This document shows positions 1-24,060 of a DNA stretch of 64,000 nt, one piece after another (position 1 is the first letter of the stretch; every line of letters starts with the position of its first letter). The stretch lies in the IMG/VR virus record IMGVR_UViG_3300037492_000285, positions 1 to 64,000 of that record; one strand, written 5' to 3'. The notes beneath the pieces were generated by a model. It was not told the DNA's origin, searched no databases, and was given only the letters and a program-made list of their open reading frames with translations. The translations under genes and the position numbers were made by a program. Source of the stretch: a virus.

Positions 1-34
1 TAAGCAACTGTTTTTAGCTTTGAACGTTAGGTGC
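1..34 (-). other. Possible partial attC-like recombination site at the window edge
   Basis: Read on the minus strand this stretch contains ACCTAAC followed by GTTC, which fits the attC core consensus RYYYAAC. It lies 3' of the small minus-strand frame at 70-339, where the attC of an integron cassette would sit. The pairing partner would be outside the window, so the fold cannot be tested. The call rests mainly on the better site at 388-484. Confidence 0.35.
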
Positions 35-69
35 AATAAAAAATAAATTTCCCACCGCACCTGTACTAA

Positions 70-339
70 TCAATATCTGTATCCTATTTCAAAATACAAT
101 TTCCAAAATCCAAACATCACCGATTTTTGGCAGTTGTTTCCAGTTGGCCATATCGGGAATAGTTGCCACATATCACTTCGTCTTATTCCAAACAATATAA
201 ATACGTGCCTCCAACTCTTTTCTTTGTTTGAAGTTTGCCAAACTGTAAAGTAGTTATGACACCAAAAATCGCCTAATCTGGCTTTGTTTTTCCAAGGATT
301 GATTTCATTCGTTGGAGATGCTTTTAATGTAAGTCCCAT
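70..339 (-). CDS. Small ORF in an integron-cassette-like unit (89 aa)
   Basis: This is an 89-residue, Trp-rich frame that I do not recognise. Its position is the main support: on the minus strand it starts about 50 nt after the GTTATGT end of the attC-like site at 388-484, and it ends about 40 nt before a second attC-like core near position 30. That is the usual layout of a promoterless integron cassette gene. The base composition is richer in GC than the neighbouring phage genes. It may be a chance frame, because cassettes often hold non-coding or unrecognisable ORFs. Confidence 0.35.
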   Translation of the reverse strand: MGLTLKASPTNEINPWKNKARLGDFWCHNYFTVWQTSNKEKSWRHVFILFGIRRSDMWQLFPIWPTGNNCQKSVMFGFWKLYFEIGYRY

Positions 340-387
340 TTTGTAAATTGTTTTTTAAAGCCCACGCTAAATTTATTTTTTACAGAC

Positions 388-484
388 ACATAACAGCAGG
401 TAGGCAAAATGCCGCTATGACTGAGTGCTTCGATTTAAAATTTGTGGTAAGCGGCACCATCGCCTACCTGCAAAACGTTAGCAA
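388..484. other. attC-like integron recombination site
   Basis: The site is an imperfect palindrome of about 95 nt. GCAGGTAGGC (396-405) pairs with GCCTACCTGC (462-471) over 10 bp, and inside it TGCCGCT (410-416) pairs with AGCGGCA (450-456) over 7 bp. The outer ends are TAAC (391-394) and GTTA (477-480), matching the R'' and R' boxes of attC. The length, the two stem blocks separated by unpaired bases, and the unpaired terminal loop are all typical of attC sites recognised as folded single strands by integron integrases. No integrase gene is visible in the window. Confidence 0.7.
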
Positions 485-492
485 ACATAAAA

Positions 493-972
493 CTACTTCC
501 CGTTTGCTATCTTTCTCCACTCATCAGATATACCATTAAACCAATTATCAAAGCTACTCTTATATCCTTTTTCACATGCTATAGCAAAATTTACTGCTAT
601 ATGTCTAAGTTCATTTATATTAAATTTACGTTTGTTAACATTGTGTTCTATCTCATCTTCCATTTTTTTTAATTCTTTATCATAAGTTCCATTTAATTCG
701 CATTCATCAAGAACAGCTTTCACTATTTTTGAAGAGTAAAGTCGTGCTTTATTGTATCTAATATTGGTATTAGAAGATTTTATCATATCAAGTATTTTTT
801 CATCAGATAAGTAATCAACACTTCTCACATCATCTCCTACTACTGCGTGTAGAGCACCTAAATCATATGCTTTTAATAGTAATGGACTTAAATCAGATAT
901 TCTTTCTTTAACATCTAATTCATTATTAAATCCACACATATAGGTTTCTAGTATAGTTTTATCGTCTTCCAT
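493..972 (-). CDS. Hypothetical protein (159 aa)
   Basis: This frame is AT-rich like the phage genes. The product is mostly charged and probably helical, with no signal peptide or membrane segment. I recognise no domain. Its TAG stop lies about 10 nt from the GTTAG edge of the attC-like site, so on the minus strand the order is gene then attC, as in an integron cassette. It could equally be an ordinary phage gene truncated or juxtaposed at a recombination or assembly junction. The start at 972 follows an A-rich stretch and the structured RNA region at 1000-1184. Confidence 0.65.
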   Translation of the reverse strand: MEDDKTILETYMCGFNNELDVKERISDLSPLLLKAYDLGALHAVVGDDVRSVDYLSDEKILDMIKSSNTNIRYNKARLYSSKIVKAVLDECELNGTYDKELKKMEDEIEHNVNKRKFNINELRHIAVNFAIACEKGYKSSFDNWFNGISDEWRKIANGK

Positions 973-999
973 AAGTTATTATTTTATTAGTTAAAAATC

Positions 1000-1184
1000 C
1001 TTTGAAAATTCTTCTGACCGTATGCCTACGGGATACCTTATCTAATTACTTTGGGAGAGCTTATCTCTTATCCTATACAGAATGTATCTATCCACAAACA
1101 ACGACCTTTGCAAGAGGTCTAAGGTTTTGCCAGTATGTCGGTGAGCTTCCTTTTCAGTTTGCTTCAATCAGAAGAATTTCAAAG
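1000..1184. ncRNA. Structured RNA candidate closed by a 17-bp stem
   Basis: CTTTGAAAATTCTTCTGA (1000-1017) is complementary to TCAGAAGAATTTCAAAG (1168-1184) over 17 bp with one bulged base, enclosing about 150 nt. Inside are smaller hairpins, CCGTA-TGCC-TACGG near 1019-1032 and GACCT/AGGTC near 1110-1126. The segment is less AT-rich than its neighbours and has no convincing gene; the plus-strand frame running through it resembles nothing. It lies between the tRNA-like gene and the 493-972 gene, so a minus-strand transcript is likely. I could not match it to 6S RNA, RNase P RNA, tmRNA or a group I core. Confidence 0.45.
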
Positions 1185-1292
1185 AACTTAAACCATACAC
1201 ACTCTTCAGCATTCTACTCCCAGCTCCGAGGAATTGTATCTAACTTAGCCCATCTCACCGCTGTAAGGGTACTGAAGTTTATATGTATGTTG

Positions 1293-1383
1293 TAGTCAGG
1301 ACAGGATTCGAACCTGCGTAAATCAACACTCAGTTAGGGATTAACCTAAAGGATGATGCATAACCTATCTCTGCCACCTGACT
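1293..1383 (-). tRNA. tRNA-like gene with long variable region; anticodon not assignable
   Basis: On the minus strand AGTCAGG (1383-1377) pairs perfectly with CCTGACT (1300-1294) as a 7-bp acceptor stem. The T arm is GCAGG-TTCGAAT-CCTGT, and the D arm has GCA/TGC closing a loop with the conserved AG and GG. The total of about 90 nt fits a class II tRNA (Leu, Ser or Tyr). The centre does not give a normal 5-bp stem with a 7-nt loop. The best helix is TTAGG/CCTAA around a 6-nt loop, displaced from the expected place. CCA is not fully encoded. It is either a divergent tRNA or a degenerate tRNA-like RNA. Confidence 0.55.
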
Positions 1384-3062: not shown

Positions 3063-3320
3063 TTAGTTTTTAATTCTTATTCCGAACTGTGTGTTAAACC
3101 ATACAAACATTCCTTCTGCTTTTGATTTATTACATTTAAATGTTTTTTTCAATAAAGGAATTGCATATGCTGTGAATTCTTCAAATTGACTTCTTGTTAA
3201 TGTCCAATTGAAGAACCAACGATCATCATCAAGTATATCAATTCTAGATTTACCAATTATTGTTAATTGATAGTCTAATAAATGTTCACCTATGTTTGTT
3301 CTATCAATTTTCTTTTTCAT
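3063..3320 (-). CDS. Hypothetical protein (85 aa)
   Basis: This is a compact basic protein with a DDDRWFFNWTLTRSQFEEF segment at about residues 30-48 and a FVWFNTQFGI end. No known family is recognised; similar short proteins occur beside phage DNA polymerases. Its ATG overlaps the TAA of the polymerase 3' exon by one base (TAATG), so it is probably translated by reinitiation after the polymerase and may be a polymerase partner. Confidence 0.7.
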   Translation of the reverse strand: MKKKIDRTNIGEHLLDYQLTIIGKSRIDILDDDRWFFNWTLTRSQFEEFTAYAIPLLKKTFKCNKSKAEGMFVWFNTQFGIRIKN

Positions 3321-4120
3321 TAACTAAAAAGATTTAGTTGTCCTGGAATAATTTTAACTTTATTTTTCTTACCTTCTAATAAGATTTTGTTTGTAATTCT
3401 ATTAGCTTTTTCAATATAAAAATCATAATTGATATCAGCCGTATTTACATCTATATCTTTAGGAAGATAATTACGCACCGTACAAACCCATTCTCCTGCT
3501 TCCACTTGACTTACAGCAGCAGCATTTGTTTGACATTCAGGATTTTTTACCTTTAATAATTTTTCTCCTGAATTACTTACATAATATCTAATAAGTTTAT
3601 TATAGACCACCTTAGTATTAGACTGTTTATTTATTCCTTCATAGTGGAAATCTTTATTTGCTTTCTGTCTAATACAGAAGTCATATAAATTGCTATGATT
3701 TCTAATAGTCTCATCAATTGGAATGTTATTAACAAACCATTGTTCAAGAGCAATAGGTACAACACGAGCAGATTTATTCTTATGAAGTTCAAAATCTGTG
3801 AGAAAATCTCCTTTTTTCTTAATTTCACCATCGGTTTTAATTGCTAAGTAATCATTAACTGTACTAAATATGATTTTACTATAATCTGTACGCTCAAGTT
3901 CATAACTTGTAAGAGTCATCCACCATTCATTAATCTCATTCATTTTATCAATGAGAGATTTATTAATAATGATTGTTACACCATCAGTATTTGCAGAAAT
4001 TACGTGTATGCCTGATAATTCATATGCTTCTATTAACATCATAAGAGATAATTCTCCTGTAATGGTAGTAAACATTGTTAATTGTCTATCATATACCCAA
4101 TTTTGCATATCAGAAGATTT
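3320..4120 (-). CDS. DNA polymerase family B, 3' exon (palm motif C, thumb, C-terminus)
   Basis: This exon continues the palm and carries NWVYDRQ just after the splice point, then motif C as SANTDG (a variant of DTD, with NTD) and the YLAIKTDGEIKKKG-type segment. The protein ends KIIPGQLNLFS, where QLNLF matches the bacterial sliding-clamp-binding motif. I place the exon start at 4120 so that NSVYG joins KSSDMQ-NWVYD, which keeps the usual six residues between YG and the (N/S)WxYD segment, leaves U as the last exon base and makes G the last intron base. From its first internal ATG (4108) the frame alone would lack exonuclease, motif A and motif B, so it needs the 5' exon. The spliced product is 655 aa. 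Confidence 0.88.
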   Translation of the reverse strand, partial: KSSDMQNWVYDRQLTMFTTITGELSLMMLIEAYELSGIHVISANTDGVTIIINKSLIDKMNEINEWWMTLTSYELERTDYSKIIFSTVNDYLAIKTDGEIKKKGDFLTDFELHKNKSARVVPIALEQWFVNNIPIDETIRNHSNLYDFCIRQKANKDFHYEGINKQSNTKVVYNKLIRYYVSNSGEKLLKVKNPECQTNAAAVSQVEAGEWVCTVRNYLPKDIDVNTADINYDFYIEKANRITNKILLEGKKNKVKIIPGQLNLFS

Positions 4121-4372
4121 CGGTTTTGTTATCCTATAGGCTTTTTATCCTATAGTTCTTACAGTTCTTTTTCCTGTAAGCCCAGCATATATTTTCATCC
4201 CTAAGGATGTCGGGCACTCGTGGCGGTTTATATTCTATTATCATCATCTATCACTTCAGGTGTTTACACCTTCCTCCATCATGTGATGTTACGAGGCTTG
4301 ATGATAATAATAGTTTCACCCACTATGCGTTACACTGACATAAGTTTGTTAATTCTTATGTTTAGCACGGTA

Positions 4373-5197
4373 TTAGGAGTCACACCCTTCACCGTTTTTG
4401 CCCAATTTTTCAACATGAATTACTTCATGAAGTGGCTGATTGCTAAATATCAGTCCTTTATAAGATTTATTAGTTTTACAAGCTTTATTAATATTTCCAG
4501 AACTCAAGAATTTTAATGGTTTATTCATACGTTCTTGATTAAATCTTCCATTTATAGGAAGATTATTTTGTTCTGTCAAAGACCATTCTTCAAGATCTTT
4601 ACTACTTCTAAAGCACATAAGAAAATTATAATTTACATCATACACGTACACTTCTGGGGAAGCTATTCTTCTTTGTTCTCCTTGGTCTTTCCATTTTTTA
4701 AGAACTTTTTCAGATTTAGTCTTTTTTATATTTTTTAAATATAAACACTCTCCTTTAATACCTTTATTCCAAGGAATGTGTCCTTTTATAAAATTAGACT
4801 GTATTTCTCCAGTTGCGTATTTTTTCTTCATTGTAGCTGCTCTCTTTAATATTGTCTCATTAGACATATTTGGAGTGCCTGATGCAAGAGGGTTAATGTT
4901 GTATAGATTTTCTTTTTCTTCTTTATCTATCCAATATTGTTCTCTTTCAAGAGTAGTTGATTTTTCTGTATTTTCTATAATAGAAGCATAGAAACTAGTT
5001 TCACCATATTTATTAAAAGCATGTTGTAAGTAGGAATTTTTATGTTTCCCTACTCTTAACATTGAAATATGATGTTCTATTCTTTTTATTACTCTCATTG
5101 TAGAAGATCCAATATATACTTTATTAGTAATTAGATTTTCTAATACATACACCCCAGGTTTTTCTAAAGAACATCCATGTGCAATTATAATTTCCAT
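4373..5197 (-). CDS. Intron-encoded GIY-YIG homing endonuclease (274 aa)
   Basis: The N-terminal catalytic module spans about residues 14-100: GVYVLENLITNKVYIG is the GIY...YIG core, followed by R35 in the helix VIKRIEHH and by E87 in ERE-QYW. A linker and a C-terminal DNA-binding region follow (SNETILKRAATMKKKY is like NUMOD3 repeats, then VYVYDVNYNFLMCFRSS is like NUMOD1). Such enzymes cut intron-free alleles and cause intron homing. The stop codon abuts the conserved CCGTGCTAAA of the ribozyme core. An intact promoter sits directly upstream inside the intron. Confidence 0.9.
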   Translation of the reverse strand: MEIIIAHGCSLEKPGVYVLENLITNKVYIGSSTMRVIKRIEHHISMLRVGKHKNSYLQHAFNKYGETSFYASIIENTEKSTTLEREQYWIDKEEKENLYNINPLASGTPNMSNETILKRAATMKKKYATGEIQSNFIKGHIPWNKGIKGECLYLKNIKKTKSEKVLKKWKDQGEQRRIASPEVYVYDVNYNFLMCFRSSKDLEEWSLTEQNNLPINGRFNQERMNKPLKFLSSGNINKACKTNKSYKGLIFSNQPLHEVIHVEKLGKNGEGCDS

Positions 5198-5209
5198 AAG
5201 TATTTTTTA

Positions 5210-5240
5210 CAAATATACTTAAACTTTCAATCAATTCAAA
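5210..5240 (-). promoter_or_regulatory. Intron-internal promoter for the homing endonuclease
   Basis: On the minus strand TTTG (5240-5237) is followed by 19 nt and TATATTTG (5217-5210), an exact match to the Bacteroidota promoter consensus TTTG-N19-TAnnTTTG. The endonuclease start codon is at 5197, only 13 nt further on. This would allow expression independent of polymerase mRNA. Confidence 0.7.
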
Positions 5241-5271
5241 GAACTATTTTAATATTTAACAACTTTTAACA

Positions 5272-6438
5272 ACCATAAACACTATTAACAGCTAATTTTA
5301 AAGCTCCAACAATCCCTCTGATTCTTTTATCCTTTTTAGCCAAAGGTTTAAGTTCTAATCGTCTATCAAACATTTGTTTGTAGCCTCTTAAGAATTCTTT
5401 CCCTAAATGTGCAGGATAACGACCATTGTTAATGATAATAGCAGGATAATATGAACTTACATCCCAATCAATGATTAAATAATCATCATCTTCCTTAAAT
5501 ATTTTAGGAGTGTTAACAGAATGAAGTCCACCTCTTGCAAATGTATAAGTATTACCATAAAAATGTAATTCTTCAAGAAATTCATCTTGCATTTTCATAG
5601 TTCGTTTCTGTATATCCTTATAAAACTTTGTTAATTCAGGAGTTTGAAACACAACATACTTTGCAATACAATTTTTAACTTCAATACTTTTTCTAAATGT
5701 TCCTTTTTTGGGAAGTTTTTTATAATCTATTCTTTTTTCCTGACAATAAAACTTCTTAATCATTTCATCACCAATTTTACTATCAGAATAATTTAGACAA
5801 GAAATATTAAATTCCTCTTCTATATCCAACCTAAGTTCCACCTGATTATTTCCTTTATATAAAGGATGTTCAGTGTTCCCAATAGTAATGTTATAAAAAT
5901 CATAGGTAGCCATAACATCATTCTTACAATACTTTTTAGTTTGTATAACTTCTTCAAGAGTCATATCAACTTTAGTATGATGTATAGGCATTTCTTCTAT
6001 GTTCTCAAAATCCATTTCAAATTCAAGTCTTTTAAGACTAACCATTCGATTCTTGTTTGAATAATGATTTATTTCAAAAACATCTAATATTTTAAAACTT
6101 AAATTATTTTCTCTGTATTTTGGTAAAACGTTATACTTACTATCATTAATAGTGTCTTGTGCTATTTGAGAAATTTTAGAACATATTTCAAGTCCTGTCA
6201 AACTATGCCATTGATCACAGTTCCTAAATATATATTCTAAGACTTGACTATCGAATCTTAACCCATTATACGTTACAAAGTAATGATCTTTTTTTTGTTC
6301 AAAAAAGATTACCATATTATCTAATGTGTTTTTCCATCTACTAACCTCAAAGGTATGATATTTATCAGTTTGAGGATCGTAACAAACACATAGAAAATAC
6401 TCTAACAATGTTTCTATATCTGTAATTATAACTTTCAT
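5272..6438 (-). CDS. DNA polymerase family B, 5' exon (3'-5' exonuclease, motifs A and B)
   Basis: This exon encodes the replicative polymerase's proofreading domain and most of the palm. Exo I is DIET (D7, E9), Exo II is NGLRFD (58-63), Exo III is YCKND (170-174), motif A is DVSSYYP (326-332), and motif B is KLAVNSVYG (381-389). After G389 the gene is interrupted by the group I intron; unspliced, it ends one codon later (Cys, stop). The N-terminus starts directly at Exo I, as in other crAss-like family B polymerases, so it appears complete. Its ATG overlaps the stop of the upstream GIY-YIG gene (ATGA), suggesting coupled translation. Confidence 0.92.
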
Positions 6439-16196: not shown

Positions 16197-16512
16197 AACT
16201 ACATATATTAATACGGAACTTGATTGGGCTGAAGAACAACTCTCCTCTTGGAAAATGTATGTGGATGCAAATCCATTACACACATTAAAGGATAGAATTG
16301 AATGGAAGCCAACAGCTAAAGGAGGATTGCTTCCTATGGTGATTGCCTCAATTGAGAGTCAGGGAAAGTTTATACAGGAAACAATGAAAAACTATCTTGC
16401 CCTTCTTGAGGTGGTAGATAATCTACGTAAGAAGGAAGAAGCAAAGATAGAAGTGAGAGGTGGTGTAGGACTAGGTTCTATGGCTGAAGACTTCTTAAAG
16501 AGTAGAAAATGA
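16177..16512 (+). CDS. Candidate small terminase subunit or adaptor (111 aa)
   Basis: It lies immediately before TerL, with an ATGA overlap, and has the size and helical content expected of a small terminase subunit. Residues 60-90 (IQETMKNYLALLEVVDNLRK) look like an oligomerisation helix. No DNA-binding motif is evident, so the assignment rests on position. Confidence 0.55.
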   Translation: MAKTTNKTTYINTELDWAEEQLSSWKMYVDANPLHTLKDRIEWKPTAKGGLLPMVIASIESQGKFIQETMKNYLALLEVVDNLRKKEEAKIEVRGGVGLGSMAEDFLKSRK

Positions 16513-18530
16513 TATTAGAGACTATAGATTATAAAGATTGGTTCATAAATCAAAAACGAATTCCAGATAGAGAGTCAGATGAACATAAAGCGTTCTTTGA
16601 ATTTCATAAAGAATTATGTATAAATGGGTTTATGATGAATGGGGTATATATAAACCCCTTCTTATATTGGCATTTAAATATTTGGCATACAGAGGTTGAT
16701 ATTATAGATGAGCGAGGAAGAATAGCACAGAAATATGCAAATCCGTTATTAAGAGATAATGAATGGATTGTCACAAACGAGATAGATAGGGCACATCAAG
16801 AAAGGAAAGGATTAGTTATTCTTGGCATTAGACGTTTTGCAAAGAGCGTTATTGAGGCTTCATATATAGGATGGGGAGCCACGTTTGATGAGAACTCCCA
16901 GAATATTATAGCTGGTTTGAATGCTCCTGACATAAAACTAATTACAGACAAACTTGATAAAGGATTAAACTTTATTCCTGAAGCCTGGAGATGGCAAAGA
17001 GTTGAAGATAATTGGAAAAATCAGGTTACACTTGGTATTAAAACAAGAGCAGGTGAACGTATTCCTTTTTCACAGATACTTATTCGAAATCTTGATGAAG
17101 GTAATAATGAAGAAGCTATTGCTGGTACAAAACCCAGAAAACTTATAATAGATGAAATAGGAAAAGGAAACTTTTTAAGAGGTTTCCAAGCTGCTGTTCC
17201 TGGTTTCACCACACCTTATGGATGGGGATGTTCTCCAATCCTTACAGGAACAGGTGGTGATATGAAGAGATTTATGGATGCTAAGAGTCTTATGTTCGAT
17301 GTTGACAATTTTAATTTTCTTACTTATAATAACAGCAAGGATGAAAATAGGGTACATGGATTATTTCTATCGAATAAATATAGGATGGAGGCTAAAGAGC
17401 CTTCTACGCTTGGAGCATTTTTGGAATCAGATACAGGCAGTCCTTTGTATGATGTACCTATGTTGGTATCTAATGAAGAGAAAGCTGCACAGATTACAGA
17501 CACAAATCTGGAAAGATTAAAGAAAGCTGGAGATCGTATAGCTTATTTAAAAGAGAAAATGTACTATCCAAAAGAAGTGGATGATATATTTTTAAATGAA
17601 GACACAAACATTTTTGATATTGAGGCTGCTAAACGTCAGAAGTCCAAATTGTTACAACAAGAACGTACAGGAATTCCTGTAATCTTGTTTCAAAATGAAG
17701 GAGCAGTTTCACATGAGTTTACAGACAAGTTACCAATTACAAACTTCCCACTTAAGAATAGTGATAATAAGGATGCTCCAATTGTGATTTATGAGTTTCC
17801 TGTTGAGAGTCCTCCTTATGGATTATATACAGCAGGAGTTGACCCTTATAGACAAGGAAAGGCTGCATATAGTTCGTCCTTAGGATCTGTATACATATAT
17901 AAACGTATGCATGATATAATGGGAGAAAAGTATCAGGATATGTTTGTAGCATCTTATTGTGCACGTCCTGATAAAAAAGAAGTTTGGGAAGAACAGGCAA
18001 GACTCCTTATTAAATATTATAATGCAAGAACTCTATGTGAGAATGATGATATTTCCTTCATAGAATATATGAAGGCTAAAGGAGATTCTCACTATCTTGA
18101 AAAACAACCTGAATGGTTATTAGAGATTGTTCCTAACACTACAGTTAAACGTGAGTTTGGATTACATAGAAGTGCACAAAAGATTATTGATTATTTGCAC
18201 AATTGTTATAAAAAATATCAGGAAGAAACTGTATATAAGGAAACTGATGAGAATGGTAAGGTTATAAGAGAGGTAATAGGAGTGAGTAGAATTCTTGATC
18301 CTGTATTATTAGAAGAAACCATTCAGTATAATGATCAGGGAAACTTTGACCGTATTGTTGCAGCAGAACTAGCTATAGCTCAAGCAATTAAGATGGACCC
18401 TATTATGGGTAGAGTAGGGGGGAGTGGTGATGGACGAATAAAATCTCTATCAGCAAACCGAGCTAAGAACCCATTGTTCACAGAATCACGAGGATTATTT
18501 AATAGAAAAAAACAAAAATTATTTACATAA
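16509..18530 (+). CDS. terL: Large terminase subunit TerL (673 aa)
   Basis: This is the packaging motor ATPase and headful nuclease. The Walker A-like motif is GIRRFAKS (106-113), a variant with Ala in place of the usual Gly before Lys; Walker B is LIIDE (212-216). The nuclease domain begins near residue 440 with TAGVDPYRQGKAAY, whose Asp is a metal ligand, and CENDD follows about 70 residues later. Length and order fit crAss-like TerL. The portal gene starts at its stop codon (TAATG). Confidence 0.93.
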   Translation: MILETIDYKDWFINQKRIPDRESDEHKAFFEFHKELCINGFMMNGVYINPFLYWHLNIWHTEVDIIDERGRIAQKYANPLLRDNEWIVTNEIDRAHQERKGLVILGIRRFAKSVIEASYIGWGATFDENSQNIIAGLNAPDIKLITDKLDKGLNFIPEAWRWQRVEDNWKNQVTLGIKTRAGERIPFSQILIRNLDEGNNEEAIAGTKPRKLIIDEIGKGNFLRGFQAAVPGFTTPYGWGCSPILTGTGGDMKRFMDAKSLMFDVDNFNFLTYNNSKDENRVHGLFLSNKYRMEAKEPSTLGAFLESDTGSPLYDVPMLVSNEEKAAQITDTNLERLKKAGDRIAYLKEKMYYPKEVDDIFLNEDTNIFDIEAAKRQKSKLLQQERTGIPVILFQNEGAVSHEFTDKLPITNFPLKNSDNKDAPIVIYEFPVESPPYGLYTAGVDPYRQGKAAYSSSLGSVYIYKRMHDIMGEKYQDMFVASYCARPDKKEVWEEQARLLIKYYNARTLCENDDISFIEYMKAKGDSHYLEKQPEWLLEIVPNTTVKREFGLHRSAQKIIDYLHNCYKKYQEETVYKETDENGKVIREVIGVSRILDPVLLEETIQYNDQGNFDRIVAAELAIAQAIKMDPIMGRVGGSGDGRIKSLSANRAKNPLFTESRGLFNRKKQKLFT

Positions 18531-21124
18531 TGGCAATCATTAGATATACAAAAGACGCTACCATACGGTATGCCTATCTCAATATTTTTCCTGATCAGTT
18601 TAAGACTGACAAAGAAAAACAAGATGAGAGTTGGGTGAAAAACACTATGGATTACTTTTCAAATAAGGCTTATGCCGAATATGTAAAGAACAGGGACACC
18701 TTCGTTAAGAATTACGATCTTATGAAGGGGATTCTTAGAATGGAAGATTTTTACCAAGAGCCTGAGGTTAAGAGCTTTACAGAAATGTTACAAGCAGATC
18801 TTGAACTTCCTGCATATGTAAAACATTATTCTATAATTACTACTCCTATAAATGAATTGATTGGGGAAATATCAAAAAGACCTGATACATTTAGGGTGAA
18901 GGCATTTGATGATGATAGTCAGTCTGAAGAATTAGAATTTAAAACACAGATTCTTCAGGAGTATGTGCTTCAAGAAGCTAAACAAAAGATTCTTGAAAAG
19001 GCAGCAATGGAAGGAGCTGAAATTTCAGAAGAAGATTTACAGAAACTAACAATGGAGGAAGTTAAGGATGAATTAGATTCTTATACATCTGTTGCAGAAA
19101 AATGGGGAAATCATGTCTTAACTTGTCAGAAAGCTGAATTTAATTTAAAAGAAAAGAGTGAAGACACCTTTAGGGATCTTCTAATTTCAGCCAGAGAGTT
19201 TTATCATATCTATGAGGACAATTCAAAACTTGGATTTAACATAGAAGTGGCTAACCCTAAGAACACTTGGTTTCTTACAACACCTGATAGGAAATGGATT
19301 TCAGATCCAACAGGTAGAGCACAGGGAGCCTATGCTGCTGGTATGGTGCAAGTTATGGAACTTTCAGAAATTATTGAAAGTATTCCAGATCTTACTAAGG
19401 AAGAAATAGATCACTTACGTTCTTCTCTTCAAGACTATGGACTTATAAATGTTCGTGAATCCAATCTTGGAAATCCAGATGTCACTCCTGGTACAGATTC
19501 TGTAGTGTATGATACTTTTGATCCACTTGTTTTACAAACAAGAATGATGATTGAAAGTGAAATGAAAGAGAACAATGATGGACTTAAAGACTTCTTAGGA
19601 TTAACATCAAATGTTTCTTCCTTTGGATATAAATATGTAGTGGTAAGAGGCTATTGGCTTTCTAAAAAGAAAATAGGTAAATTGATTTATGAAGATGAAA
19701 TGGGAAATGAGCAATCAATTCTTGTTGATGAAAATTATAAATCAGGAACTATCCCAACACAACAAAGTCTTGAATGGGGATGGATTAATCAATGGTATCA
19801 AGGAATTAAAATTGGTCCAGATATCTATCATATTAAACCATTTAAACTTCTAACCTATTGTCCTATTATAGGAACAACGTATGAAGTGAAGAATACAGAA
19901 GCCAGAAGTCTTGTTGATCTCATGAAACCTTTTCAGGTGATATATAATGTATGTATGAATCAACTTTACAAACTTCTTGAAAAAGAAATAGGAAAGGTGT
20001 ATTTAACATCTATTAGACATATTCCTGTTCCAAAAGATGGAGATGCACAAGATGCATTAGATATGTGGGAATTAGAAGCACGTAATAGAGGAGTAGTATT
20101 TATTGATGATAGTCCTGAGAATTTAAAAAGTCCATCAGGGTTTAATCAATTTAGAGATATAGATTTAACCAGAACACAGGAAATCCAATCTCGTTATACA
20201 TTAGCACAACAAATGAAGAATGAGTGTTGGGAACTTGTAGGTATGTCTAAACAGCGCATGGGCTCCATCTCAGCGAGTGAATCTGCTACAGGGACCAATA
20301 CTGCCATGCAACAAAGTTATTCGCAGACAGAGCCTCTATTCGTTGCTCACGAGTATGTATTAGGGCAATTATATCAGGCAGTTATTGATGCTGCCCTTTA
20401 TGTAGAAAGTAGTAAGCCACAATCAACCCTTTCATATATTACATCAGAAGGAGAATCTGCATTTGTACAAGTGAATGGTTCAGATATTAGATTCCGTGAT
20501 CTTAAAGTATTCTTAACAAATCGTCCTGAAGATACACAAATGTTTAATGAGTTACGTCAACTCTCACAAGCTGTTATTCAGAATGGTGGATCACTCTATG
20601 ATATCATTGAACTTTATTCTACCAAATCAACAAGGGCAATGAAAAAAACCTTTAAAGGTTTGAGAGACAGACAGATAGCTGTACAAGAACAGCAACAACA
20701 ACAAGCACAACAGCAGTTGGAACAACAGCAACAACAGGCACAGGCACAATTACAACAGCAAGCACAACAACATCAGGAGCAAGTTGCAAATGATAATTAT
20801 CAGAAAGAACTTGATAGAATTAGCAAAAAAGAAATTGCTATTATTCAGGCTACAGGATTTGGTAAGGTGGAAGGTGAAGATGCTAATAATAATGCTATCC
20901 CTGATGTACTTGAAATGAGTAGACTTGACAATGATTTGAATAAAGCTTCGAAAGATTATCAACTTAAAATGTCAGAAATTCAATCAAAGAATTCTCAAGC
21001 TCTACAGAAATTACAATTAGAAAGAGAACGATTACAAGTAGATCGTGAAAATCAAGCAAATGATCTTGCTATTGCAAGAGAAAACGCAAAGGGTAGAGCA
21101 AAATCTGCAAGTAAGAAAAAATAA
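18530..21124 (+). CDS. Portal protein (864 aa)
   Basis: It directly follows TerL and has the size of crAss-like portals. The body is mixed alpha/beta and the C-terminal region is helical. Residues about 717-754 form a Gln-rich tract (repeated Q, A and E), and the tail ends in a long Lys/Glu helix and KSASKKK. The portal forms the dodecameric DNA channel and docks TerL and the ring proteins. Identification is by position and length more than by a motif. Confidence 0.88.
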   Translation: MAIIRYTKDATIRYAYLNIFPDQFKTDKEKQDESWVKNTMDYFSNKAYAEYVKNRDTFVKNYDLMKGILRMEDFYQEPEVKSFTEMLQADLELPAYVKHYSIITTPINELIGEISKRPDTFRVKAFDDDSQSEELEFKTQILQEYVLQEAKQKILEKAAMEGAEISEEDLQKLTMEEVKDELDSYTSVAEKWGNHVLTCQKAEFNLKEKSEDTFRDLLISAREFYHIYEDNSKLGFNIEVANPKNTWFLTTPDRKWISDPTGRAQGAYAAGMVQVMELSEIIESIPDLTKEEIDHLRSSLQDYGLINVRESNLGNPDVTPGTDSVVYDTFDPLVLQTRMMIESEMKENNDGLKDFLGLTSNVSSFGYKYVVVRGYWLSKKKIGKLIYEDEMGNEQSILVDENYKSGTIPTQQSLEWGWINQWYQGIKIGPDIYHIKPFKLLTYCPIIGTTYEVKNTEARSLVDLMKPFQVIYNVCMNQLYKLLEKEIGKVYLTSIRHIPVPKDGDAQDALDMWELEARNRGVVFIDDSPENLKSPSGFNQFRDIDLTRTQEIQSRYTLAQQMKNECWELVGMSKQRMGSISASESATGTNTAMQQSYSQTEPLFVAHEYVLGQLYQAVIDAALYVESSKPQSTLSYITSEGESAFVQVNGSDIRFRDLKVFLTNRPEDTQMFNELRQLSQAVIQNGGSLYDIIELYSTKSTRAMKKTFKGLRDRQIAVQEQQQQQAQQQLEQQQQQAQAQLQQQAQQHQEQVANDNYQKELDRISKKEIAIIQATGFGKVEGEDANNNAIPDVLEMSRLDNDLNKASKDYQLKMSEIQSKNSQALQKLQLERERLQVDRENQANDLAIARENAKGRAKSASKKK

Positions 21125-22506: not shown

Positions 22507-24060
22507 ATGTCAATTCAAACTATCCCAGGATTAACTGGTTTTACCTACGCTAGGGTTGCCTCTATGGACAAACGTGCAGTAGGGAAACTTACAGATTCGA
22601 ATCACTTGGAGTCATTCCACAGCACTGAACCAGCAGACTATGATAAGAAAATTATCAGTCTCTATACTCAGAGCTCATTGTACAGTAATGATTTCCTTGA
22701 CATGATTAACAAAAGCACACCTTATTACATTGATAATAATAGTGATGCTTGGAAATGGCAAGTAGCCGTTCCTTACAAATTTCCTAAAATCATTGACATT
22801 CCTTCGTCAACTATCGCTTTACAAAAGCCAGGTGTTGATGGTCAGGAATTTCAGGTGGTATTGGACACTAACGAATTCTCAAAGAACGCTATTGTTTCTG
22901 TGGGTTCACGTCAGTATGGTCCTCGTTGGTATGTTATAAAAGATCCTATTCCTTGGAATATGGGTTATTTATACAGCTTTACGTTGGTTACTGATAATCC
23001 ACAAGTAGATTTCGTAACTTCTACATTCTTACAAGTAGGTATCGAACTTGAAATGGTTGATGCTGCTATTGGTGAATTCGATCAGGATCTCTTAGGTCTT
23101 CCTCGTTTGGGTGAGCAAATCACAATGTTTGAATCTTTGGGTTCAGGTTATGGTTTCGAACACAAAATCACTGAATGGGCTGATGACAAAATGATGGTTG
23201 ATGCTTCGGGCAAACCTTTAGATATTCTTGTCTATGCTCCTCAACGTAGGAATCAACTTCCTTTAACTCGTAATGATGTTAAATGGGAACCGTTTATTGA
23301 ATTCTGGATGCGTAAGTCAATGCTTGAACTGAAAGTTAAGCGTATGATTTGGAGCAAACCTGGTACTGTTAAGACTAATGGTAGCAAACAGGAACTGAAA
23401 CGTACGTCTGCTGGTGTTTATCATCGTATGCGTAATAACGGTAATCTTGTTCAGTATAACCGTGGTGAGTTCTCAGCAAATTTGATTCGTTCAGTATTTG
23501 GTGATCTTTTCTACAGGCGTGTTGATGTTAAAGACCGTAGGGTTAAAATGTATACCAATGAAGCAGGGTTTGATGTATTTCAACAGGCTCTTAAATCTGA
23601 TGCTCTGAATTCAGGGTTGACGTTTATGGCTGATAGTGGAAATCGTTATATGCAAGGAGAAGGACAGCACATCACTTATAACTTTGCGTTTGATGCAATG
23701 GTTACTCGTGAAACTGGTCGTGTTGAACTTATTCACTTGAAAGAACTTGATCTTCCACAGTCAAACCTGGAATTTGGTCAGAATAAAAAATCAACTCCTG
23801 TATTTATGGTGTTTGATGTTTCTCCTATGAGCGATGGTTCATTGGTAAACAACATTCGTGAAGTCAGGATGAAAGGTGCTCCTTCAATGACTTGGGGATA
23901 TATTGATGGAACTCGCCATCACTTAGGTTTTGCTAAATCACAGGGTATGAGTTCTGCAAATAAGTTCCCTGGATATGAGATTTGGATGAAAGACCGTTGT
24001 GATGTATTCATTGAGGATTTGTCTCGTACCGTTCTTATCGAAGAGATTCCTCAGTTCTAA
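22507..24060 (+). CDS. Major capsid protein (517 aa, HK97-type)
   Basis: The position after portal and scaffold, the length near 500 aa and the beta-rich, Trp/Tyr-rich sequence match crAss-like major capsid proteins, which have the HK97 fold with an extra insertion domain. The gene stands out by codon use: it uses more C-ending and CGT codons than neighbours (for example CGTCAG, CGTACG, TTCGTA), as expected for the most expressed gene. A pair of strong hairpins follows. Confidence 0.9.
   Translation: MSIQTIPGLTGFTYARVASMDKRAVGKLTDSNHLESFHSTEPADYDKKIISLYTQSSLYSNDFLDMINKSTPYYIDNNSDAWKWQVAVPYKFPKIIDIPSSTIALQKPGVDGQEFQVVLDTNEFSKNAIVSVGSRQYGPRWYVIKDPIPWNMGYLYSFTLVTDNPQVDFVTSTFLQVGIELEMVDAAIGEFDQDLLGLPRLGEQITMFESLGSGYGFEHKITEWADDKMMVDASGKPLDILVYAPQRRNQLPLTRNDVKWEPFIEFWMRKSMLELKVKRMIWSKPGTVKTNGSKQELKRTSAGVYHRMRNNGNLVQYNRGEFSANLIRSVFGDLFYRRVDVKDRRVKMYTNEAGFDVFQQALKSDALNSGLTFMADSGNRYMQGEGQHITYNFAFDAMVTRETGRVELIHLKELDLPQSNLEFGQNKKSTPVFMVFDVSPMSDGSLVNNIREVRMKGAPSMTWGYIDGTRHHLGFAKSQGMSSANKFPGYEIWMKDRCDVFIEDLSRTVLIEEIPQF

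Follow-up and report, generated by a model that had tools for sequence, protein, structure and literature searches.

Integrons are regarded as gene-capture platforms of bacteria, and phages are seen to carry fragments of them. The window analyzed here (64,000 nt, positions 1 to 64,000 of the IMG/VR virus record IMGVR_UViG_3300037492_000285) opens with what resembles an integron gene cassette abutting phage genes, raising the question of whether this cassette belongs to the phage and, if so, which recombination system placed it there. Our analysis supports the presence, at the left edge, of a gene cassette with an attC-like site that is physically part of a crAss-like phage. Judged by comparison with related contigs, the cassette appears to be a real movable unit, and it probably stems not from an IntI integron of bacteria but from a dedicated integron-like system owned by Bacteroidota phages.

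Alignment with the viral contig L006 delimits a complete gene cassette of 451 bp at positions 27–477, with its attC frame on the plus strand and its cargo ORF on the minus strand. The alignment spans the cassette at 95.2% identity, and the copy in L006, a phage contig without the crAss capsid, sits within a seven-hairpin array. The left boundary is formed by an R box, GTTAGGTGCAAT (26–37, plus strand), whose 5′ end is identical in other loci. The second attC core suspected near position 30 in the original prediction was located here, as G26|TTAGGTGCAAT, the start of the cassette, and recombination would take place between G26 and T27. Further left, positions 1–26 (plus strand), read directly and clipped by the contig edge, look like the distal end (...CTTTGAACG|) of the attC-like site of another cassette; window positions 7–61 align with contig L005, in which another cassette's hairpin abuts an identical cassette start. 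The 99-kb record contains no match to the integrase family PF00589.

The attC-like hairpin of the cassette (391–480, plus strand) begins with an R″ box TAAC (391–394) and a single spacer base, A395. A 10-bp outer stem (GCAGGTAGGC, 396–405, paired with GCCTACCTGC, 462–471), an internal loop, a 7-bp inner stem (TGCCGCT, 410–416, paired with AGCGGCA, 450–456) and a 33-nt loop follow, and the 5-nt spacer AAAAC (472–476) leads to GTTA (477–480), with the cassette boundary at G|TTA. Folded as DNA, this segment gives –17.8 kcal/mol (z = –3.0), and none of 200 shuffles folded equally well. Its conservation in 12 other viral contigs, together with these values, bears out the fold proposed for 388–484 and indicates that the hairpin exceeds a chance structure; an Rfam search of the window at gathering threshold gave no attC match. 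Relatives have a cassette start, GTTAGGTG, that exactly complements the R″ box CACCTAAC (the window reads CACATAAC), as expected if the cassette was excised as a circle.

The cargo is an 89-aa ORF (70–339, minus strand) with a near-identical counterpart in L006 and no PHROG or Pfam match. The original prediction had placed it in cassette orientation; it in fact runs opposite to a classical cassette gene, as do the ORFs of 141 of the 144 phage cassettes catalogued below. At the G|TTA junction (477–480, plus strand) the cassette gives way to phage flank, and a 159-aa phage gene (493–972, minus strand) lies at the distal end of the array, outside any cassette. A blastn search of window positions 1–1000 against isolate phages returned no match.

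A 20-mer from the window hairpin occurs exactly in 12 other IMG/VR viral contigs. All 12 have the right 100–125 bp in common with the window and most also the left 37–50 bp, the middles between these conserved ends and the flanks outside them differing. Scanning for the structure (TAAC, a stem of 8 or longer, GTTA, score of at least 10.5) gave 39 sites of this kind in 14 sequences, made up of 13 loci and the window itself, counted again as L001, vs. 0.6 in shuffles, counts that depend on a purpose-written finder and on base-pair shuffling, a rough control, as the sole background. In viral contigs, a looser hairpin pattern recovered no family other than this one. The hairpins fall into three length classes of ~48, 88–93 and 125–128 nt.

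Extending this reading, we catalogued 144 cassettes (median ~0.4 kb) in 40 phage contigs, comprising 116 ORF families, mainly singletons. Each has one hairpin and exact G|TT boundaries, begins with GTTAKNNNCAAT (the R-box consensus derived from cassette and attI boundaries) and closes with its reverse complement ahead of the hairpin. In 89 of 140 adjacent pairs the cassette start is complementary to its own R″ at 6–7 of 8 positions, vs. a median of about 3 of 8 for the sequence on the cassette's own 3′ side, as expected for a circle opened at G|TT; the test ruled out pairing of R″ with the cassette's 3′ flank. The contigs are IMG/VR records, and TerL of one family (phrog_2) was matched in 17 of 46, so not every record is proven to be a phage; phrog_2 had to be abandoned as a universal hallmark, since crAss-like and other phages fail to match it.

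Three of the 12 contigs sharing the hairpin encode closely related tyrosine recombinases of 263–268 aa, in two cases adjoining the array. A search with these recombinases showed that at least 107 IMG/VR contigs encode a relative of ~266 aa, and 80 of them were fetched. At least two hairpins lie within 5 kb upstream of the integrase in 29 of the 44 loci with enough sequence, none were present within 5 kb downstream in 67 loci, and hairpin strand at the fetched loci is biased 162:8. An attI-like motif, TAAC|TATNATATAT, lies between array and integrase, 37–59 bp upstream of the integrase match, with a variable cassette side. This attI beside the integrase gene, a hallmark of integrons, is found in ~60 loci; the window is cut by the contig edge at the corresponding place. 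In nine of the 44 loci, integrase and attI motif are present and the scan detected no hairpin, which counts against the model proposed below.

Alignment of 37 of these integrases shows that R132, K157, H216, R219, H242 and Y251, the active-site residues of tyrosine recombinases, are invariant. The IntI model TIGR02249 scores 150–158 bits against a cut-off of 265, with the match split into two stretches because the IntI-specific insertion is absent. Relative to residues 182–265 of VchIntIA the phage recombinase is ~48 residues shorter, and a gap at the insertion is visible also in alignment with phage-borne IntI. The enzyme thus lacks a feature that defines integrons sensu stricto. This is a point against our preferred explanation, as the insertion is said to be essential for IntI function (Smyshlyaev et al., PMC8138268). 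The best NCBIfam and PDB matches are XerA (NF040815; PDB 4a8e and 5hxy), below the XerA equivalog cut-off. Like XerA, XerC and XerD in length and catalytic residues, the phage recombinase differs from them in lying beside cassette arrays and not a dif site. A quick tree unites the 32 phage sequences in a single group (SH-aLRT 95), next to recombinases from Bacteroidota chromosomes. Ingeline carries a related integrase and was set aside, as a scan at lowered threshold found no hairpins there.

The layout is in several respects that of canonical integrons (IntI, class 1, the Vibrio superintegron): the integrase diverges from the array with the attachment site between, each cassette has one hairpin site with a G|TT core and R′/R″ complementarity in the excised form, and the cargo is small and diverse. 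There are also differences. The recombinase is phage-encoded, lacks the IntI insertion and scores far below the IntI cut-off; the spacers are 1–2 and 5 nt, the R box is extended to roughly GTTAKNNNCAAT, and the genes point toward attI, whereas in integrons they lie 5′ to attC and are read outward from attI.

Integron elements in phages, which the original prediction did not know to be established, have already been described. From temperate phages, Qi et al. 2023 (PMC9892861) reported three complete integrons with IntI and a single In0; they also reported 17 CALINs. Their elements share with the present arrays attC cassettes in both temperate and virulent phages and DNA methyltransferase cargo. 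Unlike those elements, the present lineage comes with a recombinase and an attI of its own and extends to at least 107 IMG/VR contigs, and for such a dedicated phage version we found no report, many subscription papers and preprints lying outside the search. A crAss-like phage paper that mentions integrons and cassettes (PMC11054128) proved to concern diversity-generating retroelements and the use of IntegronFinder.

Could ordinary bacterial cassettes nevertheless be stranded in phages as CALINs and moved by the host IntI alone? CALINs occur in virulent phages, and of six phage attC sites assayed, five proved to be substrates for IntI1 (PMC9892861); Polaribacter phage P12002L, used experimentally in that study, itself bears two hairpins of the present type (30008 and 38879, beside methyltransferase genes in reversed orientation; TAAC, one with a CATTAAAACGA core; GTTAGNNNCAAT), and the crAss-like array has no adjacent integrase. 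Host IntI alone, however, would not readily account for a dedicated clade of phage recombinases (SH-aLRT 95) adjoining arrays with a conserved attI, nor for a polarity (141:3 reversed) opposite to that of chromosomal Bacteroidota arrays (25:3 forward), and IntegronFinder 2.0 lists very few Bacteroidetes integrons (PMC9024848). We consider this reading improbable, though the best of the alternatives.

The chromosomal comparison comprises 11 Bacteroidota recombinase loci with hairpin arrays, which lie 3′ of the integrase in most examples inspected by position. One exception, L104, is arranged as in the phages and may itself derive from a phage or prophage. Chromosomal-type arrays with XerA-like recombinases, in classical gene orientation, with larger genes and with recombinases below the IntI cut-off where tested, were seen in L154, L155, L157, L126, L142, L143 and L174 (Bacteroidota genomes) and in L108 and L132; they are possibly an unrecognized integron class of Bacteroidota and relatives.

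Natural variants support the view that the phage system moves whole cassettes. L026 and L030 match at 100% for 2536 bp, a stretch that starts at attI and takes in the integrase, and have no similarity upstream, and L074 and L077 are likewise identical downstream of attI and different upstream save for one weak (74%) block. L036 and L043 have a 960-bp block in common (99.9%) at different array positions. The cultured Polaribacter phages Freya_1–10, with closed genomes and one host strain, encode an integrase that is 38.6% identical to that of L003 and 100% identical among the ten isolates. In the seven Freya arrays read, with Freya_10 as the reference, Freya_1 has none of the 4.9-kb array, Freya_3 has 842 bp and Freya_5 1744 bp, Freya_8 is missing an internal 902-bp cassette, Freya_9 is missing the attI-proximal 307-bp cassette and Freya_6 has a new block of ~470 bp. 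Next to the integrase, the isolates thus gain or lack entire cassettes; the breakpoints fall at (C)AAC, and the attI side, AAC|ACCCC, is constant. Among the Danklef phages, Danklef_1 and Danklef_5 are identical over the compared stretch of the array, and Danklef_2 differs mainly in lacking one cassette, which in Danklef_1 encodes an adenine methylase; both of its ends are cut at TAAC. The array-associated integrase of Danklef_1, _5 and _2 (L194, L195 and L196) is truncated, the C-terminal part alone being annotated; that a cassette nevertheless varies between these isolates counts against our explanation.

Such differences might also arise by modular exchange if conserved intergenic hairpins or terminators supplied the homology for recombination; the integrase would then have no part in it and serve, for example, lysogeny. 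Some cassette families do have conserved ends of 40–125 bp, Freya encodes RecT, and Bartlau et al. (PMC8776804) take the integrase of Freya, Danklef and Leef as a marker of a temperate lifestyle, the word integron being absent from their paper. The partners at several natural junctions, however, share 3–8 bp only (CAAC in Freya_8, TAACTATC at attI), which is too short and argues against homologous recombination, and the breakpoints always fall at AAC/GTT, many beside the integrase. This alternative is very unlikely.

The site in the window can be followed in the same manner. The window is a genuine crAss-like phage (Crassvirales), carrying TerL (phrog_6681, 16509–18530), portal (phrog_6547, 18530–21124) and the Crassvirus major capsid protein (PF23898, Crass_capsid, 22507–24060), all on the plus strand, as well as the muzzle crAss_MUZ (PF25731), with capsid and muzzle above cut-off. 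The genes after 493–972 (DNA polymerase and others) are on the minus strand, as is that gene. L197, which comes from a different metagenome, aligns with the window at 97.8% identity along a collinear 3.66 kb that includes gene 493–972 (96% identical protein). In L197 the flank continues unchanged to the same base, after ...ATGTTTGC(A)TAAC, and then enters four cassettes of a different set, which indicates cassette turnover at this site in the same phage. Three of its hairpins were found by the scan and a fourth was read by eye; with no integrase beside them, they form a CALIN in the sense of Qi et al. 2023 (at least two attC sites, no integrase). Past the array the contig runs on for ~3 kb, a search of these 3.2 kb yielded no integrase, and no continuation of this right flank was found in the window's record. 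Being independent of the window and combining its backbone with another array, L197 supports the physical linkage to the phage, on which the original prediction was conditional, and answers the chimeric assembly that had been raised as the main alternative. That a bacterial integron was artificially joined to the phage contig, as the location at a contig edge might suggest, is scarcely credible given that the L197 backbone enters an array at the same base and leaves it into further integrase-free DNA, that arrays are found within other phage contigs and that they occur in closed genomes of phage isolates.

The window and L197 show other features. After position 6640 of L197 the end of the array, GTGCTATAAC|TCGTTGATAGTAACAAGTT, bears a faint likeness to attI as seen in other phages (TAAC, 10 nt, NAACAAGT); no integrase follows it, and it might be an attI in decay or, in crAss-like phages, a secondary site. 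In the window, ~1.16 kb with a GIY-YIG gene (4115–5270; gene at 4373–5197) splits the DNA polymerase gene into pieces at 5266–6438 and 3320–4108, both on the minus strand. Since the polymerase frame of L197 is unbroken at the corresponding point, this segment is a recent intron or homing insertion. A tRNA-like gene at 1292–1383 (minus strand) has an odd anticodon call (‘tt’, 92 nt) and an Rfam tRNA score of 44.8 bits.

The window thus very probably starts inside an array of a phage integron-like system, in which a XerA-like recombinase moves cassettes in tailed phages of Bacteroidota. The mobile unit would be a small gene with a single attC-like hairpin, which the phage-encoded XerA-like tyrosine recombinase would excise and insert at the hairpin GTT core, and insert also at the attI-like site directly upstream of its own gene, so that the phages gain, lose and reorder cassettes. 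The substrate may be a folded single strand. The sequences themselves show how the cassettes and arrays are built, where attI and the integrase lie, that natural variants have gained, lost and reordered cassettes exactly, and that there is turnover at the window's site; the phage recombinase is the presumed agent of movement, and comparison of natural variants suggests that the system is active. That neither the window's 99-kb record nor the 3.2 kb past the L197 array holds an integrase speaks against the model, and in the crAss-like phage the recombinase may act in trans or be encoded in the missing part of the genome.

IntI integrates single copies of cassettes at secondary (attG-like) sites. 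Integration of this kind would offer a possible in-trans route into a crAss-like phage without an adjacent integrase; a difference is that the related phage L197 has an array of at least four cassettes at one fixed site. Off-target integron activity is the subject of a published study (PMC10127599).

Among 120 cassette proteins, few match any family. The matches include two C5 and one N6/N4 methyltransferase, a Lar-type restriction alleviation protein, an RNA ligase, YopX, DUF3850 and others, on the basis of which cargo with a known family seems to lean toward counter-defence, most cargo having no assigned function; such cargo may serve the phages in this role. The Bacteroidetes –7 promoter motif TAnnTTTG was not clearly enriched within cassettes (15 of 134 vs. 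9.7 in shuffles). Several cassette proteins of different phages start alike, with the leader MSK.[MI]R..I.K...F..F (for example L003, 5612–5833; L197, 4014–4343 and 4557–5141), which suggests that cargo otherwise unalike bears a shared N-terminal signal.

We consider it likely that a phage integron lineage, whose recombinase is not an IntI, whose attI is its own and whose cassettes are reversed, keeps a shared pool of small, often counter-defence genes that move between unrelated Bacteroidota phages (crAss-like, large or jumbo, and siphophages) and change the arrays between co-occurring isolates of one species. If so, integron-type recombination would be possible by a recombinase without the IntI insertion, ‘integrase’ genes such as those of Freya and Danklef, now taken as signs of lysogeny, would need reinterpretation, and the cassette boundaries would define a catalogue of candidate anti-defence genes. 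The existence of cultured phages with variant arrays makes direct testing possible. Phages of the Bacteroidota seem to use an integron-like system to pick up, exchange and rearrange small genes, including anti-restriction genes, which would give them a site-specific route for rapid turnover of small accessory genes.
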